Of a stretch of 64,000 nucleotides of DNA, positions 19,831-33,021 are shown piece by piece. The stretch is from an uncultured Nostoc sp. Its GTDB lineage: Bacteria; Cyanobacteriota; Cyanobacteriia; Cyanobacteriales; Nostocaceae. A program made the translations under genes and the position numbers. The DNA is taken from assembly GCF_937863485.1 (NCBI RefSeq), contig NZ_CALMFY010000113.1:67860-131859 (forward strand), read 5' to 3'. Under the pieces are notes generated by a model. The model was not told the origin of the DNA and made no database searches. It worked only from the letters and a program-made list of their open reading frames with translations. How positions within the stretch are numbered: position 1 is the stretch's first letter; every line of letters starts with the position of its first letter.

Positions 19831-20040
19831 ATGCTACCTTTTAAGAAAAAAATTGTGACTGATGAAGCGATGTGTCCGGTAGCAGTGTTGATTGATTATC
19901 AGGAGTGGCAGCAAATTGAGATGATATTAGAAGCTCATCAATCACAACAAAAACAAGAGTTTAATTTAAACCAGTATGCTGGTGTAATTCAACTAACTCA
20001 AGACCCTTTGGAATATCAGCAGCAAATTAGGGATGAGTAG
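19831..20040 (+). CDS. Orphan antitoxin-like protein (partner of a lost VapC/PIN toxin)
   Basis: 69 residues. KKKIVTDEAMCPVAVLIDYQ, then EWQQIEMILEAHQ, then YAGVIQLTQDPLEYQQQIRD, is the layout of small cyanobacterial antitoxins that precede PIN-domain toxins: an N-terminal DNA-binding/dimer segment and an acidic C-terminal toxin-binding tail. The following toxin frame is destroyed after 12 codons, so the antitoxin is probably orphaned. Annotation as antitoxin is by pattern and context. Confidence 0.62.
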   Translation: MLPFKKKIVTDEAMCPVAVLIDYQEWQQIEMILEAHQSQQKQEFNLNQYAGVIQLTQDPLEYQQQIRDE

Positions 20041-20114: not shown

Positions 20115-23100
20115 CTATTCTGGCTTTGTTTTAATAAGAACATTATCGAAATATACAGCAGCCCCATCATCGCTGCTTCCTAATGAGATAACTCCAATTT
20201 TTCCAGAAGTGTAAGAGTCATCTTCAAATATCCCGACCCTTTGGCCATTAATCCATCCAATTACCTTTTTACCATTGCAAACAACTCTTAATCGATTTAT
20301 ATTATTACCTAGCTTGATGCTAGTAGAATGTTGCCAGCCCACTTTCTCTTCCCATTTGTTACTTGCTATGAGTTTTCCCATCGCAAACTCGCCATTCCCT
20401 TTAATTAGTAAGTAATAAAAATTCTGCCTTACACTAGATTTCTTGTTCTCGCTAGTTCGGGCAATTACACCGAATGCTGAATCATCAGTTCCATTAACCT
20501 TTTTAACATCAACTGAAAAATCCAAGTCTTTAAATATCTGATTTTTATTGCCCCAAATAGATAGTTTAAAATTATTATTTTTAGTTCCAGGATGGAATAA
20601 ACCTCCATTCTTTATACTTAGCAATGTATCTTTATTCCAATTTTGTGATGGATATTTAAAATCATCGACAAGTACAACATCTGGAAAAAAGTCTATATTA
20701 TGTTGAAAATTAGTGGTTATCAAGCCAGTTATGAATAGTAGGGAAGGTATGATAATAGCAATTAGATAAACTTTACCTAAATAAGAAAATTGTTCTATAC
20801 GTTTGAGAGATTGAATTAATCCTATAGCTCCACCGACAAAGCAACCCAATACTAACCACCCAATTGCTGCTTGTTCGACGCCAATTGCCTTAAGTGGATA
20901 TGTAGTTAAGTCAGTAATGAGAAGAAAGCTTGAACCAAGCCATGCTAGAAGGTTTATTATCCAATTAATGATGAATATAACTAGCCATAATAGTATTAAC
21001 AATAAAAATGTTGTTTTGATTAGCCAACCTATAATAATCATTCCTTTACTTGGAGAATATCGCAGATTATAACCCCATTGATTACTCAAACGCGAGCGAT
21101 TTTTATAGTTTTCTATTACTTGATTTATCGAATCATAAAATATTTCTACTTTTGATTTTAATTTTTCCTTGAATAAATTTAAATCTTCACGAAATATAAA
21201 CGCACAAACAAACAATACTAGACTACCAAAAATAGAACATATAATCTGCACCTCTGGTATCCCAAATATACTCAGATGCAAAAAAGGAAAAAATTCTGGT
21301 AAATAAGAAGCTCCAGTGACTTCAGGTGGGTATGACAAAACCCAATTGTCATCTAAACCTACTGATAAATAGTTTCCCAAAATGTGGCGGATTAAAAACA
21401 TGACTAATCCTACAGGGATACAAATTCTAGCAGTTAATGCGGTTATTATGTCCCAATTTAGAGATTTTTTGAAGTAAATGGGTACTTCAAATTCGCCAGT
21501 ATTTGTTTTTATAGTTATTTCAGTATTATAGTGACCAGCCTCTAGATTAGTGGTATCTATACTCAACGAAAATTCTAATGATTTTCCTTGCGAACTATGC
21601 TGTATTATTTCTATTTCATTCATCTTAGTTGAAGCAATTCCCTTAAGTCTTCCGCCAGAAGACTCACAAGTAATTATTAATGTTCTACTAAAGGAATGCC
21701 TACCATGTGAAATAACTCCCAAGTCTAATTTTTCTGGCTTCCTGATATTTAGATTTGTAATTTTGTAACTTATAGGAATTCGACAGGTATACTCAATCTG
21801 TTTTAAAAAAATGAAAATACTACCTTGATAATCACCAGGTTCAACTTCAAGAGCATCAAAATTAATATCAAATGTTGTGTCTGTAGAGGAATCAAATTGT
21901 TCGGGTACACTCAGACCTGGGAGATTAGGGTTAATTACATCTCCCCATGCAAACCCACGCCCATTGTTACTAATTTTCAAGGACAGCTTATCTTGGTATC
22001 CGATGGGGATTTCACCAAGCTCTAGCTGATTCGGTTCAAAAAAGATTTTTGGGTGTGGAGGTCTGCCTAGATGTCTACAAAGTTCCCTCACGAACATTTC
22101 TACACCTCTACGCTTTTCTTGCTTATAGCCCTCAACAATCTTTCGAGACAGATTTGCTAAATGTGTTTCACTACGCAAGAATAGCCACTCTTCAAGATAT
22201 TCGCTATTGAATAAATAATCTTTTGTTATATCTGGATACTTATCACACTTGTCAATTAAATCAGAAACTGAGAAAACTTCCTCATTTTTAAACTTTAATT
22301 TAGTTGGGCCTAAATACTCCTCTAGTTCTTTAGTACGAAGCTCTCGACTAGCATTTAAAAAATCGTTATCCTCTTTACTTAAGTTTTTTCCTGCTGCCCA
22401 TCTCTGTGCATTCTTTAACTCATCTCCACGCAAAAGCCACGATTCATCTTGATAGTTAGAAGCTAACCAAGCTGTTATTGCTTCTCTATAAAACTGTGGT
22501 CTTAGCTCGGCTAATTGCTTGTTCACCCAGCTTTTGTCAAAAACTTTCTTATAAATACGATTGTATACCTCTAAGGAAGCCTGTCGCTTAAGCACTAAAC
22601 CTGTTAGCCGTAGTTCCATTTGTTCTAGAGTGTCATCAGCTAATATCCTCTCTTGTTGCAAGATTTGCTTGTACAGTCCTAGCATCTGACCTGCTCGTTG
22701 TTCGTTCCTCAAAATGCGATCACGTATCGTCCTCAAATGCTCAGGCTCGTCTTGTGATTCCCAATTTTCAATGATGCGCGATCGCACTAATTCTTCAACT
22801 CCTGATGTCTCCATCTCATTTGGGATGAGATCACAAACTTTTTGGGTAAGAAACGGTTGTCCACCAGTCCAAACCAATACCTCATTCAGCACCGCTTGGG
22901 GTTTCTTAACTTTTCCCACCAATCCTTGCGCTAATGGTTCGGCTTCGTGTAGAAGAAAACCGTTGACTTCAATGGCACGACCAATATTAAATGGTGTGCG
23001 CTTTTTATCTTGAATCAGATCCGAGGGTGTAGCTACTCCCAACAGACAAAATGTAAGGTGTTTGTATGCTGGTTTATCAACACGCTGGTTATAGCAGAAC

Positions 23101-23597
23101 CTGAGCCAAGCAAAAAAGTCGTCAGTCGAAAAATTCAGGCTGAGAACACTATCAATTTCATCAATAAAAATCACAATAGATTGAGAAATTTCAAGCAGTA
23201 GAACTTCCTCGATAAATTCACTTAATCGCTGTACGGGAGAAAGATGATCCTGATCGCGCCACCAACTCCGTAAATTAAACTTTCTTGAAAGCTCAAAACT
23301 ACTTACTAAATTACGTACTACACCTATATACCAATTATCTGGTGTAATATTCTGGCTACCAATTCCCGTCAAGTCAATCGCAGCACAGGCAATACCCTCT
23401 ACTTTCAAGCGTTGCATAATTTGTACCCGCAAGCTAGACTTACCCATCTGCCGAGAATTTAAGACATAACAAAATTCCCCAGCCTTCAATGCCTCATACA
23501 AATCTTGGTCTGCTTGTCGCACTACATAACTGGGGGCATTAACTGGTAAACTGCCACCAACTTGATATTCATAAGCTGGGTTTTGTTTTATTTTCAT
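20115..23597 (-). CDS. AAA-like ATPase with beta-sandwich region, membrane segments and lectin-like C-terminus
   Basis: 1160 residues. An AAA-like ATPase domain (about 10-400) has a Walker-A-like [11 protein letters not shown] (47-57) and Walker [11 protein letters not shown] (141-150). A charged helical linker follows (400-530). Residues about 540-765 read as two beta-sandwich domains ([40 protein letters not shown]) of immunoglobulin/MSP-like type. About five hydrophobic segments lie between 775 and 985. The C-terminal part (about 990-1160; [10 protein letters not shown], then [10 protein letters not shown], then [10 protein letters not shown]) resembles a laminin-G/concanavalin-like domain, presumably on the other side of the membrane. 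Its ATG overlaps the stop of the trypsin-TIR-ATPase gene by one base. No exact precedent is known to me. Confidence 0.72.
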
Positions 23598-25747
23598 CAG
23601 CTAACTCTCAAGCGATCGCAAAAATATTGACGATATAAATTACAACGTGGCGTTACATCATTTCCTTGCTGTTGTAATAAGCCCATACTCAGTAATTTAA
23701 AGCATTGTATCGAATCCAACCGAACTGGGCTAGTATTGGCAACTACCTTTTTAATAGCAGCAGCTAATTCTGGACGCTGTTCTAAATTCCACAAATGCCG
23801 ACGTAAGTGGTCGCTATAAGGGCCAGCTTCTGTGGGGGCTGTTTTCAAAAGCTCATTGAGCGTAATATCCTGTCTGGCAATGTGATAAAGTGCTACTCGT
23901 ACAAGATAAGGATGTCCTCCCACCGTTGCCATTAGTTGTTCAACTTGGGTAAAACTCCAACTGAGTCCATGCCTTTGTGCCAAATCAAGAACCTGTTGAG
24001 CGTTAAACTCTGGTAACTCAATCGGCAAGCCTACATTAAACGGTGATTGATTTATATTCATCGGAATATAAACTTCTGTGGAATGCACCACTACCAACCG
24101 CAGTTTTTTCCAAATATCCCGGTTTTTAGCATCTTCATGCCAAGCGCGTAACAGCCCAAAAAAGTCTGCGGCAATTTCGGGATGTTGAAATATACGATCA
24201 ACTTCATCCAATCCCAATGCTAGGGGTTGGTTGATTTCTGACAAGAGATACTCCTCAAAATAAGCGGTGCAATTGTCCTTACTGCCATAAATCACATCCC
24301 AGTAATCTGCTAACTTGTTGGCTAGCCTCAACCTCCGTCCGACGCTGGCACAAAACCACTGAAGAAACTTATCTAAATCGGTAAAAACTTTCCCATCTGC
24401 TAATTGAAAGCTCAAAGATACAGCTAAACAACCCTGTTGTGAAGCGTGATGGAGAATCCGTGCCATAAGTGAGGTTTTACCCATCTGTCGGGGCGCTTTG
24501 ATCCGAATCAAAGATCCTGGCTTCAAAATTGCCTCGTAGCAGCGGGATTCAATCGGGGGACGTTCAATATAAAATTCCGAAACTAAATCTACTTGTCCTT
24601 CTGGCAATTCTGGTTCTGCAACTGGTAGAGGCGGACTTTCCTGAGTTTCCCAAGCAGGTGCTACAGTTGGTAATTCCTCTATAGCGGCACGATTTGGGCT
24701 GCTTCCACCATCTTCGGTCAACAATGATAAAATTTCTTGCAAAATCCTCGGAGTATCGGCAGGCGATTTCCACTCTCGCTGCTGAATCTGACTTAAATAA
24801 CCCCGTAATTCATAATTTAGTGGTGAACTTAAAGGAAAATTAACCCGAATGGGCAAAATTACTGGTTTATGCTCAGGACGCAAATCCTGTAACTGCTTTG
24901 CCCTTCTTACTTCTTCTGTAACCATCTCACTGGTTGCTGATTGTGGAGATAACAGCAGCAGAAAGTAATCACACCGTTCTAATTCTGTATCGATGCGTTG
25001 GGGCCAGTTTTCCCCCAAGCGAATACTCTCACCCGCCATAAATACTTCATGTCCAGCAGCTTTGATTGCTTCATAAAAATACTGGGCAAGGCTCAAGTCT
25101 GGATCTTGACTGCGATAGCTAATAAAAACTCTGGTGCTGTCGCTATTTGGTGGCAACAGTGGTACATTCTCATTAATATCCAGAAATAGTGACAAATTTG
25201 AGCATTTTTGCTGCACTGTAACCAGAGGTAGAGCCAATGCGCCTTCTGTATTGTCATAAGCGGCAATTATGCCAATAACTCGTTGAGTTTCCGCATCAAA
25301 TACGGGCGAACCGCTATAACCCCCTTGCACTTGTTGCGAATTCGCCTTGACTCGCAACCGCAACATTGGTAAGTTGCTAAATTCAGATTGGGGATTAATA
25401 TCAGTGATCGTGCCATCAATCGAAGCACCTTGAGGAAAATCCGTTCGCCCATAGCCAATAGACAGAAATCGATCCATCGGCTGAAAATTAAAAGCTAAGG
25501 GAACTGAAGCACCTTCATAACCGGATAATTGCAATATGGCAAAATCATCGCGGGTGCGATCGCCTAAATAAACCAACTCAACCCCTTGCCCATTGACTCG
25601 CACTTCTTCCCAACCCCCTGCCGATTCAACTACATGAGCGCAGGTGAGTAAATGTCCATTAGGTGAGATAAAAAAGCCCGTGCCTTGGATGCAACCTTCT
25701 GGGGTAGCGATCGCTACGGTACAAGCTTTAACTAATTCCCAGTTCAT
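23597..25747 (-). CDS. Trypsin-like protease - TIR - AAA-like ATPase fusion protein
   Basis: 716 residues in three parts. Residues 1-185 are a trypsin-fold protease with an apparent triad: H38 ([10 protein letters not shown]), D68 (RDDFAILQL) and S145 ([10 protein letters not shown]). Residues 205-340 are a TIR domain ([40 protein letters not shown]), a fold that in bacteria often cleaves NAD+ or makes cyclic ADP-ribose signals. Residues 385-716 are an AAA-like ATPase with [10 protein letters not shown] (Walker A, about 418) and [11 protein letters not shown] (Walker B, about 510). No signal peptide is visible, so it is probably cytoplasmic. It begins nine bases after the Trypco1-like gene and overlaps the next gene by one base. 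Protease, TIR and ATPase are the usual effector and switch modules of bacterial immune proteins; that role is inferred. Confidence 0.82.
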
Positions 25748-25756
25748 GAAAATTTA

Positions 25757-26101
25757 TTACTTGTTTTCTTCGGATGCCAATTTCCAAGTTATTTTCACCT
25801 TCAGTGATGCCTGCCCAGTGGATTCGACCACATAAACCGAGCCTTTAGCGGTAAAATTCACGCCAAACTCAACTTCTCCGCTCACGGGTTGCGATTCTTG
25901 CTGCAAGGTACGAAATGCTTTTGTAATTGGGCGACACCCACGAACAATCAATTCCTTAACTGCATCGAAGTTAGCCTCTACTTTTTCTATAGGTAACTCA
26001 CCAGTAGGCGATACACGACCTACTGATGCATCTGGTAGTTCAACTGCTACCAAAATCGTGCCTCCATCCTCTGTATTCAGTTCTAGAAGCTTACGAGCCA
26101 T
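25757..26101 (-). CDS. Trypsin-co-occurring (Trypco1-like, CU044_2847-type) small protein
   Basis: A 114-residue beta-rich protein: TILVAVELPDASVGRVS, then VEANFDAVKELIVRGCRPIT, then SGEVEFGVNFTAKGSVYVVE and a final strand. This pattern (short strands, one central helix, then GEVEFGVNFTAKG) fits the small family named for its constant association with trypsin-like proteases in bacterial conflict systems, and a trypsin-TIR-ATPase gene follows after nine bases. Function in the family is unproven; a role as sensor or protease partner/substrate is inferred. The start ATG at 26101 is the first gene of the minus-strand operon. Confidence 0.72.
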   Translation of the reverse strand: MARKLLELNTEDGGTILVAVELPDASVGRVSPTGELPIEKVEANFDAVKELIVRGCRPITKAFRTLQQESQPVSGEVEFGVNFTAKGSVYVVESTGQASLKVKITWKLASEENK

Positions 26102-31137: not shown

Positions 31138-33021
31138 ATGGCAAATTACTGGGCGATCGCGATTGGCATCAATCAATATCAGTTATTTCAACCTTTAAGT
31201 TGTGCCCAAGCAGATGCTGAGGCACTAGAGGATTTTTTGGTGACAGAGGGAGGTTTTGTCCCCAAACACTGTCTAGTCATGACAGATACTTCGCCGCCCA
31301 TTCAGGATAGGTCAACTTACCCAACAAAGCAGAATATTTTGCTGCTGCTTGAGGATTTGGCAGCGACAAGTTGGCAACCAGAAGATTATCTGTGGTTATT
31401 TTTTAGCGGTTATGGGGTCAACTACAAGGGCAAAGATTACTTAATGCCAGCGGAAGGCAACCCCGAACTCGTGCAAGAGACTGGCATAGAATTGCGATCG
31501 CTAATGCAAAGTCTCCAACTTGCTGAGATGAATGTATTGTTACTGCTCGATATCAACCGTGCTTTTGGCACCCAAGCGGATGCTCCTGTTGGCGAAGAAA
31601 CAATAGAACTAGCCCAAGAACTACAACTCGCTACAATTCTTTCTTGCCAACCAGAGCAATTTTCCCATGAAAGTAGCGAACTAGGTCACGGATTCTTTAC
31701 AGCAGCTTTATTAGAAGCTTTGCGTTCTGGTAATGGCAGCAACTTGACAGATTTAGAAAGCTACCTAAGTCTGCTGATGCCAAAATTATGTCAACATCAT
31801 TGGCGTCCTGTCCAAAACCCTGCCACGATCATTCCATCAAGACCGCAGGTAATCTTGCCACAATTGGCAATGGAAAGCGACTTTGAAGTAAATCCGGTGA
31901 TTTATCCGGAAGAATCCTTTGCTGTTGCCCTTGCAGCTCCTCCCCTCGACGATTACCCTAAAACTTCAGCAGAACGAGGCAGATGGGGAGAAGCTACTGT
32001 GAATTCCTCCCAACAGGTGAAGGCTTACAAGGAAGAGAAGTCTAAGAGTCAACCAGTCCAGGAGTCAGCTACTAGCTTAGTTTCCCAGCCGATGCCGGAA
32101 ACTTCTTTAGGAGTGAATACAAGGGGAAGATTTATCCCCAATTCCTCCAAAGGTTACGTCTCTCGATTGCCATCGAATCAGCCAAGTATCCCTTTTTGGA
32201 AACAATTTATCTTGTGGGGCGGAGGCAGCCTGCTGGTAGCAGGTTTAATCGCCGTAGTTTTTCTCCGTAATCAAGAAACTTTTAGAATTAAGCAAATATC
32301 AAAAACATCACCTAATGCTACTGCTAGCGATCGCCAGGTTATCCAGAATTTACCAAACGATCGCACTCCACCAGTTAAACTCAAAAACCAATCTAGCGCC
32401 CAAATAACTTCTAGTTCCGAGTCGAAAAAGCGAAATCAAGCAGTATTAGACTTGGCGAAAATGTCGCTCAGACAAACTCAGGCTAGCGATTTGAGCTTGG
32501 CGATTGCTACAGCCCGGAAAATTCAACCCGGTGAACCACTGTACGAGCAAGCTCAGGAGAATATTAAGATTTGGAGCCGGATGATTTTAGATTTAGCAGA
32601 GGGTCGTGCTAAACAAAGACAGTATGCTAGCGCTATTGCTGCTGCACGATTAATCACCAAAGATGAAGCCCTCTATGCCAAATCACAAGCAGTAATCAAC
32701 CTGTGGCGGCTAGAGGGGAAGCAGTATGTGACTAACAAAACTCTTTTAGATGCAGCTAATGCCTTAATTAAGTCTGAACAGGCATCTACCTACAATCGGG
32801 CGATCGAAGTTGCTAAGAAAGTACCATCAGATCAACCAGGCTTCGATACTGCCCAAAAATCGATCAATAAATGGAGTGAGAAAATTTTAGACCTGGCCAA
32901 GCGTCGCGCCGCCGAAGGAGACAGCAATGCAGCAATTGCGACCGCTGCTTTAGTACCAGAGGAGACAGCCACTTACGAAGATGCTCAGGATGCCATCCAA
33001 AAATGGCAAAAAAAATTGTAG
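31138..33021 (+). CDS. Caspase-fold (C14) protein with substituted catalytic dyad, membrane segment and C-terminal repeats
   Basis: 627 residues. Residues 1-235 are a caspase/orthocaspase p20-like fold (AIAIGINQYQ; DYLWLFFSGYG; NVLLLLDINRAFG; GFFTAALLEALRSG). The catalytic histidine of the usual FSGHG is Tyr (Y92), and the catalytic cysteine of the usual LLDACHSG is Asn (N140), so it should be proteolytically inactive, matching the YN-type pseudo-orthocaspases described in cyanobacteria. One membrane segment lies at about 357-376 (FILWGGGSLLVAGLIAVVFL). The C-terminal 190 residues hold about four degenerate helical repeats (ILDLAEGRAKQRQYASAIAA; DAQDAIQKWQKK) of TPR-like type. Role unknown, perhaps scaffold or regulator of active orthocaspases. 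Confidence 0.85.
   Translation: MANYWAIAIGINQYQLFQPLSCAQADAEALEDFLVTEGGFVPKHCLVMTDTSPPIQDRSTYPTKQNILLLLEDLAATSWQPEDYLWLFFSGYGVNYKGKDYLMPAEGNPELVQETGIELRSLMQSLQLAEMNVLLLLDINRAFGTQADAPVGEETIELAQELQLATILSCQPEQFSHESSELGHGFFTAALLEALRSGNGSNLTDLESYLSLLMPKLCQHHWRPVQNPATIIPSRPQVILPQLAMESDFEVNPVIYPEESFAVALAAPPLDDYPKTSAERGRWGEATVNSSQQVKAYKEEKSKSQPVQESATSLVSQPMPETSLGVNTRGRFIPNSSKGYVSRLPSNQPSIPFWKQFILWGGGSLLVAGLIAVVFLRNQETFRIKQISKTSPNATASDRQVIQNLPNDRTPPVKLKNQSSAQITSSSESKKRNQAVLDLAKMSLRQTQASDLSLAIATARKIQPGEPLYEQAQENIKIWSRMILDLAEGRAKQRQYASAIAAARLITKDEALYAKSQAVINLWRLEGKQYVTNKTLLDAANALIKSEQASTYNRAIEVAKKVPSDQPGFDTAQKSINKWSEKILDLAKRRAAEGDSNAAIATAALVPEETATYEDAQDAIQKWQKKL

Follow-up and report, generated by a model that had tools for sequence, protein, structure and literature searches.

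In the conflict systems described by Kaur et al. (2020; PMC7159879), Trypco1 lies beside genes of the trypsin-EAD9 type, trypsin, caspase, TIR, and cyclase heads are carried on a core component, variable C-terminal modules are carried on another component, the hosts are multicellular bacteria, and effectors are placed at the variable C-termini. A 2024 PNAS study on related loci proposed C-terminal sensors and N-terminal effectors (PMC10907252), and Trypco1, trypsin, and TIR are reported as conflict-system components in both texts. Among plant nucleotide-binding leucine-rich repeat receptors (NLRs), the TIR-NLR RPP1 is a chain of TIR and a STAND-type NTPase, and the rice pair RGA4/RGA5 consists of two NTPases, one with a variable extra domain, the HMA domain of RGA5 (PMC9366066). 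In Avs proteins, the effector, STAND NTPase, and sensor repeats are in one chain. Here, we describe an operon in a stretch of 64,000 nucleotides (nt) from an uncultured Nostoc sp. (contig NZ_CALMFY010000113.1, positions 67,860 to 131,859; hereafter, the window). Its three minus-strand genes encode a Trypco1 protein (gene 1), a trypsin-TIR chain with a strong AAA_35 NTPase domain, AAAa (gene 2), and a weaker AAA_35 NTPase domain, AAAb, with an Ig-like, transmembrane, and lectin-like tail (gene 3). This operon is probably one of several allelic forms of an NLR-like conflict (immune) switch, polymorphic and split over two proteins, that is built on the plan of plant and animal immune receptors and has a putative antiviral role.

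Gene 2 resembles RPP1 in its TIR and STAND-type NTPase, and the two NTPases, one with a variable extra part, resemble RGA4/RGA5; the pair differs from plant NLRs and NLR pairs in that it is bacterial, has no leucine-rich repeat match and a headless sensor-like chain, and is paired functionally only as we infer. In contrast to Avs and bNACHT, the effector and the proposed sensor form separate chains, each with its own AAA_35 NTPase. No Avs model was among the PADLOC matches, and Pfam assigned no NACHT family to gene 2 or gene 3 at E values up to 1. The operon differs from the systems of Kaur et al. in its core of two STAND-like NTPases and in having no MoxR match on its contig.

The preliminary description of this DNA, made from the sequence alone, had proposed a system of three tightly packed genes that should also be neighbours elsewhere. 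The three-open reading frame (ORF) unit was confirmed, with intergenic gaps of 9 and −1 nt (the ATG and TGA share one base), and among 80 related loci (the 80 best out of 94 found by a single scan of named records), 11 carry trypsin, TIR, and AAAa in one chain, all 11 with Trypco1 upstream and an AAAb gene downstream. Many otherwise matching loci have neither Trypco1 nor trypsin, and a fixed three-gene system was therefore dropped; the conserved core is better read as the AAAa-AAAb pair, with exchangeable ends. Among the 81 AAAa genes recognised in the 80 loci, 77 have at least 1,500 nt of downstream room, and a same-strand AAAb gene lies within that distance in 54 of them, with a gap of at most 150 nt in 37 of the 54; upstream, where 3,000 nt were needed, AAAb stands beside AAAa in 1 of 69. 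These counts rest on profiles, which would miss more diverged AAAb partners or Trypco1 genes. By head type, AAAb follows in 11/11 trypsin+TIR genes, 16/27 genes with TIR and without trypsin, and 27/39 others. At L093, AAAb and then AAAa are fused in a single ORF. In the genome of the window, three of the six strong AAA_35 genes are directly followed by a weak one, and for two more, at contig ends, the downstream side is off the contig. Of 292 genomes sampled across the phylum, 88 contain relatives of gene 2 at an E value of 1e-40, mostly matched through AAA_35. The fused L093 ORF (6279-10106, 1275 amino acids [aa]) has an N-terminus that gives the impression of vWA/SAV_2336, with no Pfam match.

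The relatedness of the two NTPases, suggested earlier from a common loop, was borne out: both match AAA_35 and share RQMGK(S/T)SL. In the window, each retains an intact P-loop and Walker B motif, and the Walker Lys and Walker B Asp are each conserved in 55/55 rows of the AAAa alignment and the following Glu in 46/55, while all three are present in 46/46 AAAb rows. Past the core, a Pro of the GxP type is found in GGHP (53/55 AAAa rows) and in GGQP (46/46 AAAb rows), which we take to be the STAND motif. The models of both NTPases match archaeal STAND-like ATPases, plant NLRs, and Orc/Cdc6 and show the fold common to NB-ARC, NACHT, and Orc-Cdc6 ATPases; in the second-look PDB comparisons of the models, the absence of a family from the listed matches does not rule it out. 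The best Foldseek match of gene 2, and its top PDB match, is RPP1 (4.3e-12). By sequence and predicted fold both NTPases are of the STAND type, and ligand-driven nucleoside triphosphate (NTP) exchange and oligomerisation are putative. Sequence searches against solved structures gave nothing beyond weak matches to the HhoA protease for gene 2 and no match for genes 1 and 3.

The front end of gene 2 is likewise as first described, a trypsin with a complete triad followed by TIR and the ATPase, as indicated by Pfam matches, alignments, and models; the trypsin and TIR folds, on which the preliminary description had made its interpretation depend, are both predicted. The triad is intact in the window and conserved among the trypsin rows (His 12/12, Asp 11/12, and Ser 12/12). 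Glu279, presumably at the catalytic position of TIR by comparison with other TIR alignments, is conserved in 29/34 TIR rows, including that of the window; sequence, fold, and this Glu would fit a TIR that cleaves nicotinamide adenine dinucleotide (NAD+), a putative activity.

The ends on either side of the pair are diverse. By Pfam (10 examples), AAAa heads comprise trypsin+TIR, class III cyclase+TIR, sigma70-region-4-like+TIR, TIR alone, Ser/Thr kinase, and CHAT/caspase-like; other N-termini are short, helix-turn-helix-like by eye, and match no family, and a trypsin head without TIR also occurs (L167). The tail references number 61, of which the Pfam scan covered 31. The 34 AAAb tails scanned with Pfam include WD40 (14), histidine kinase (4), peptidoglycan-binding (3), and trypsin (2), one each of TPR, CHAT, GAF, dynamin-like, and Ig/transmembrane/lectin, and six with no family above the cut-off, of which three (L016, L022, and L024) resemble the Ig/transmembrane part of the window. 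Extra tails are two periplasmic-binding proteins, paired with a trypsin head (L167) and a TIR head (L188), and one more peptidoglycan-binding tail. The tail of the window is one among at least ten kinds. Since the identified heads are mostly enzymes used for immune or signalling outputs and binding modules (WD40, peptidoglycan-binding, TPR, GAF, and lectin) account for 20 of the 28 identified tails, the tail is assigned as the putative sensor and the head as the putative effector; the dispute between sensor ends and effector ends in the related systems applies here too. At L156, a near sibling with 96-99% protein identity in the flanks, Trypco1, heads, and AAAa, a histidine-kinase tail occupies the same site; hence, the membrane detection by a lectin proposed earlier is specific to the allele of the window and, there, weakly supported. 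The search for orphan tails stored downstream, as in Rhs and contact-dependent inhibition loci, gave none by tblastn in 12 downstream stretches (the window and 11 loci; E value, 1e-3). At L070 (1-4305, minus strand), the AAAb gene downstream of AAAa ends in a dynamin-like GTPase, a possible membrane-acting module.

The earlier layout of sensor, NTP switch, and protease or NADase remains the best reading, although its unit is the AAAa-AAAb pair and not three fixed genes. In such a switch, the C-terminal tail of AAAb (here, Ig/transmembrane/lectin) would detect an invader or its damage, and NTP exchange on AAAb would activate AAAa or co-assemble with it in a putative complex. The assembly would gather the AAAa heads, whereupon TIR may consume NAD+ or make a nucleotide signal and trypsin may cleave a target, with dormancy or death of the infected cell as the outcome; Trypco1 might serve trypsin as an inhibitor, adaptor, or substrate.

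The small first protein was correctly likened to the Trypco1 family in the preliminary description (65.1 bits against a cut-off of 24.6), and Trypco1 goes with trypsin, not with the system as a whole. In the 80 loci, it lies upstream of 11/11 trypsin-headed genes and, by profile, of 0/69 others; at the chromosomal site within the genus, a full-length match is present in 6/6 trypsin-headed loci and in 0/9 loci that have TIR without trypsin (the two sets overlap, e.g., L016/L169, L023/L175, and L024/L187, and their counts are not additive). A short 5' Trypco1 relic is kept in four of those nine, and stop codons lie inside the relics of L024, L027, and L046; at least these trypsin-less alleles therefore descend from Trypco1-bearing ones. 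Kept with trypsin and reduced to relics or nothing where trypsin is missing, Trypco1 can be asked about its role in a clean system. Two other Trypco1 genes are found in the genome of the window (L012 1477-2718 and L014 1480-3273), one beside a trypsin-EAD9 gene and one divergent from a caspase-nSTAND1 gene.

The head and the AAAb with its tail are exchanged around a more stable AAAa and flanks. Among eight close alleles at the same site (28 pairs), the median identity and synonymous divergence (dS) are 93.9% and 0.35 for the kinase flank and 93.7% and 0.27 for AAAa, against 80.6% and 0.63 for TIR and 76.9% and 0.94 for AAAb. Between the window and L156, dS is 0.08-0.20 in the flanks and 0.10 in AAAa and jumps to 0.86 in AAAb, which fits allele replacement; merely faster protein evolution of AAAb was dropped on account of this jump. 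Conversely, L016 and L024 are 98% identical in AAAb and 92% in the tail, with TIR heads of different classes (79%). In topology tests, whose p-values are descriptive because the groups were picked after the identity table had been seen, the clade of the window and L156 has support of 100/100 by flanks and by AAAa and is rejected for AAAb (approximately unbiased test [p-AU], 0.0018). The L016+L024 clade is supported 100/100 for AAAb and rejected by flanks (1e-6) and TIR (2e-24), and the TIR-only group of L024, L025, L026, and L046 is supported 100/100 for TIR and rejected by flanks (0.005) and AAAb. The DNA similarity of the window to alleles with other tails ends at 22339-22441 (L017, L018, L023, and L025) or 22600 (L026), near the AAAb/tail border, and the GC content of the tail is 32-35% versus 41% in AAAb. 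Carriage by phages was dropped after no match was found in 50,697 phage records; relatives of gene 2 were found in 36 plasmid records, one of which spans at least 80% of the gene.

The operon is flanked by ureC on one side and a response-regulator kinase on the other, a site that is reused in other Nostocales (e.g., L017, L019, and L028) and in the Oscillatoriales locus L029 of Argonema, which has a cyclase+TIR head; L037 (Phormidium) has the kinase side in common. In 39 genomes of the genus, both ureC and the kinase-side block were matched in all 39, and the site was scored in the 27 that carry it on one stretch; in the other 12, the flanks are apart or at contig ends, and three of these (L192, L194, and L195) have pieces of the system beside the kinase. 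AAA_35 genes occupy the site in 15/27, of which 10 look intact by ORF length and five (L166, L171, L176, L181, and L190) are truncated or disrupted. In 9/27, the site holds a NACHT gene or what is left of one (five ORFs of 768-824 aa and four decayed copies, L182 being a relic only), assigned as NACHT+NCH2 by Pfam in three scanned genes and by similarity to those three in the rest. Neither is present in 3/27 (intervals of 427 bp and 873 bp and one with unrelated genes), and the two never occur together (0/27). Bacterial NACHT proteins defend against phages (PMC12169576), and the alternative occupant therefore belongs to a class with tested defence members. The NACHT proteins of L170, L172, L177, L179, and L184 are 77-97% identical over their first 180 residues and fall to 45% in some pairs past residue 480, which indicates that their C-terminal part is variable too.

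The predicted STAND-like folds with the RPP1 match, the AAAa-AAAb pairing, the mostly enzymatic heads and mostly binding tails, the exchange, the NACHT alternatives, and the conflict-system parts Trypco1, trypsin, and TIR are all counted for the immune switch, and an arms race would be expected to bring about such end-swapping between close relatives, at one fixed site, in a defence system. Environmental or cell-surface signalling outside immunity, in which the tails read nutrients, wall state, or light and the heads alter physiology or differentiation in filaments, would account for the histidine-kinase, periplasmic-binding, GAF, and peptidoglycan-binding tails, the cyclase and kinase heads, and a chromosomal position common even to L029; it is unlikely in view of the allele replacement and loss among close relatives, the decayed copies, the NACHT alternatives, and the Trypco1-trypsin and TIR heads. 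The high allelic diversity at one site and the reassorting ends would also suit allorecognition or kin discrimination, in which tails and heads mark strains and incompatible contact leads to cell death, as with fungal het NLRs. The interval in the window, however, has only three ORFs of at least 80 aa and thus no delivery or separate immunity gene, and empty and decayed sites exist, so that we regard allorecognition as very unlikely.

Several results weigh against the immune switch or fit it less well. The RPP1 alignment across TIR and NTPase has a root-mean-square deviation of about 20 Å; the domains match singly, and their arrangement does not. AAAb was not found near 23 of the 77 AAAa genes by profile search, and a sensor role is not obvious for eight of the 28 identified tails (four histidine kinase, two trypsin, one CHAT, and one dynamin-like). 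In the TIR tree, the clade of the window and L156 is absent but not rejected (p, 0.22). For AAAa, L016+L024 is not rejected (p-AU, 0.06) and the rejection of the TIR-only group is weak (0.035), so that AAAa itself may have been exchanged at times. In the same-site operons L167 (Trypco1 and trypsin without TIR) and L188 (TIR without trypsin), AAAa is only 53% and 49% identical to that of the window. The argument from NACHT is one of association, and four of five scanned NACHT proteins from the site match no PADLOC model. Within the operon, PADLOC recognises no more than the trypsin and TIR segments of gene 2, with no match in gene 1 or gene 3, and the immediate neighbours (urease, response-regulator kinase, and dehydrogenase) are not known defence genes.

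The comparison with described systems was extended to Thoeris and VMAP. The match to ThcB4 is limited to its TIR segment and scores 41.8 bits, where the cut-off is 220, with no full-length ThsB or ThcB; genes 1 and 3 match no Thoeris model, the scan for a ThsA-type effector being confined to the operon. No PF20028 (VMAP-C) match was found in the genome, nor in any control. The heads (trypsin with Trypco1, caspase-like, TIR, and cyclase) are the same as those reported for VMAP/iSTAND N-termini; nevertheless, that the operon is the third component, with neighbours, of a MoxR-vWA ternary conflict system of this type is highly improbable, as the genome has three MoxR-type (PF07726) matches, on contigs C43, C32, and C24, and none on C113, which carries the operon (vWA genes, and MoxR in other loci, were not searched for).

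No description of the AAA_35 pair and its exchangeable ends, of the site, or of the alternation with NACHT was found in the literature searched, which excluded subscription papers. "PF14516" and "AAA-like" have no occurrence in the available text of PMC7159879, nor has "PF14516" in that of PMC8195603, which names an MNS-clade "Npun2340/2341" STAND family and was the only paper found with these names. The AAA_35 pair is probably a variant of STAND/NLR-like conflict systems, and Trypco1, trypsin, TIR, and STAND NTPases are already known parts. The Npun2340/2341 name presumably joins two consecutive Nostoc punctiforme gene numbers; identity with the AAA_35 family is possible. More specifically, and tentatively, the operon may be a cyanobacterial sensor/helper pair: a conserved helper AAAa armed with TIR or protease and an AAAb with a strain-swapped integrated detector, at a fixed site where single-gene NACHT receptors are the alternatives. 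If so, bacteria would have a counterpart, diversified by recombination, to the paired NLRs with integrated decoys of plants. An NLR-like switch of two chains, with effector and sensor ends that can be exchanged independently at one site, would show how nature rebuilds immune receptors, and the natural series of swaps, losses, and deletions offers a test of the division of labour between sensor and effector.

Table 1. Features of the operon (window coordinates)
Feature	Position	Strand	Basis or proposed role
Gene 1, Trypco1 protein, 114 aa	25757..26101	minus	PF19493 8.9e-18; accessory to trypsin head
Gene 2, trypsin-TIR-AAA_35, 716 aa	23597..25747	minus	Pfam and models; proposed executor NTPase (AAAa)
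Gene 2 trypsin-like domain, residues 22-160, triad intact	25268..25684	minus	Trypsin_2 1.3e-17 (Pfam)
Gene 2 TIR domain, residues 207-314	24806..25129	minus	TIR_2 PF13676 2.9e-19; RPP1-aligned model range starts at residue 205
Gene 2 AAAa, strong AAA_35 domain, residues 381-710, predicted STAND-like fold	23618..24607	minus	AAA_35 6.2e-158
Gene 3, AAA_35, Ig-like, transmembrane, lectin-like, 1160 aa	20115..23597	minus	Proposed sensor NTPase (AAAb and tail)
Gene 3 AAAb, weak AAA_35 domain, residues 15-354, predicted STAND-like fold	22536..23555	minus	AAA_35 1.2e-32
Gene 3 exchangeable tail, residues 401-1160	20118..22397	minus	GC and DNA-similarity borders
Gene 3, two Ig-like/PapD-like (HYDIN-like) domains, residues about 515-712	21462..22055	minus	Structure models
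Gene 3 transmembrane helices, 5 or 6, residues about 715-963	20709..21455	minus	Hydropathy
Gene 3 lectin-like 3keto-disac_hyd, residues 987-1156	20130..20639	minus	PF06439 3.4e-6

For the back end of gene 3, the beta-sandwich domains (Ig-like in the models) and membrane helices of the preliminary description are supported, while the lectin is weakly suggested by the Pfam match (27.7 bits, barely over the cut-off of 26.8, in a region with a model confidence [pLDDT] below 50), and its extracytoplasmic side is putative, as five or six helices are possible by hydropathy. Between gene 3 and ureC, a 69-aa ORF (19831-20040, plus strand) appears antitoxin-like by eye, and from 20037 onward on the same strand, a frame starts like the PIN-like ORFs of 123-124 aa of L170, L173, and L179 (by eye) and meets an early stop, so that the two may be the remains of a toxin-antitoxin pair. 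On the far side of the flanking kinase and dehydrogenase, some 5 kb away from the operon, lies a 627-aa ORF with a caspase domain (Peptidase_C14, 3.1e-16; 31138-33021, plus strand).

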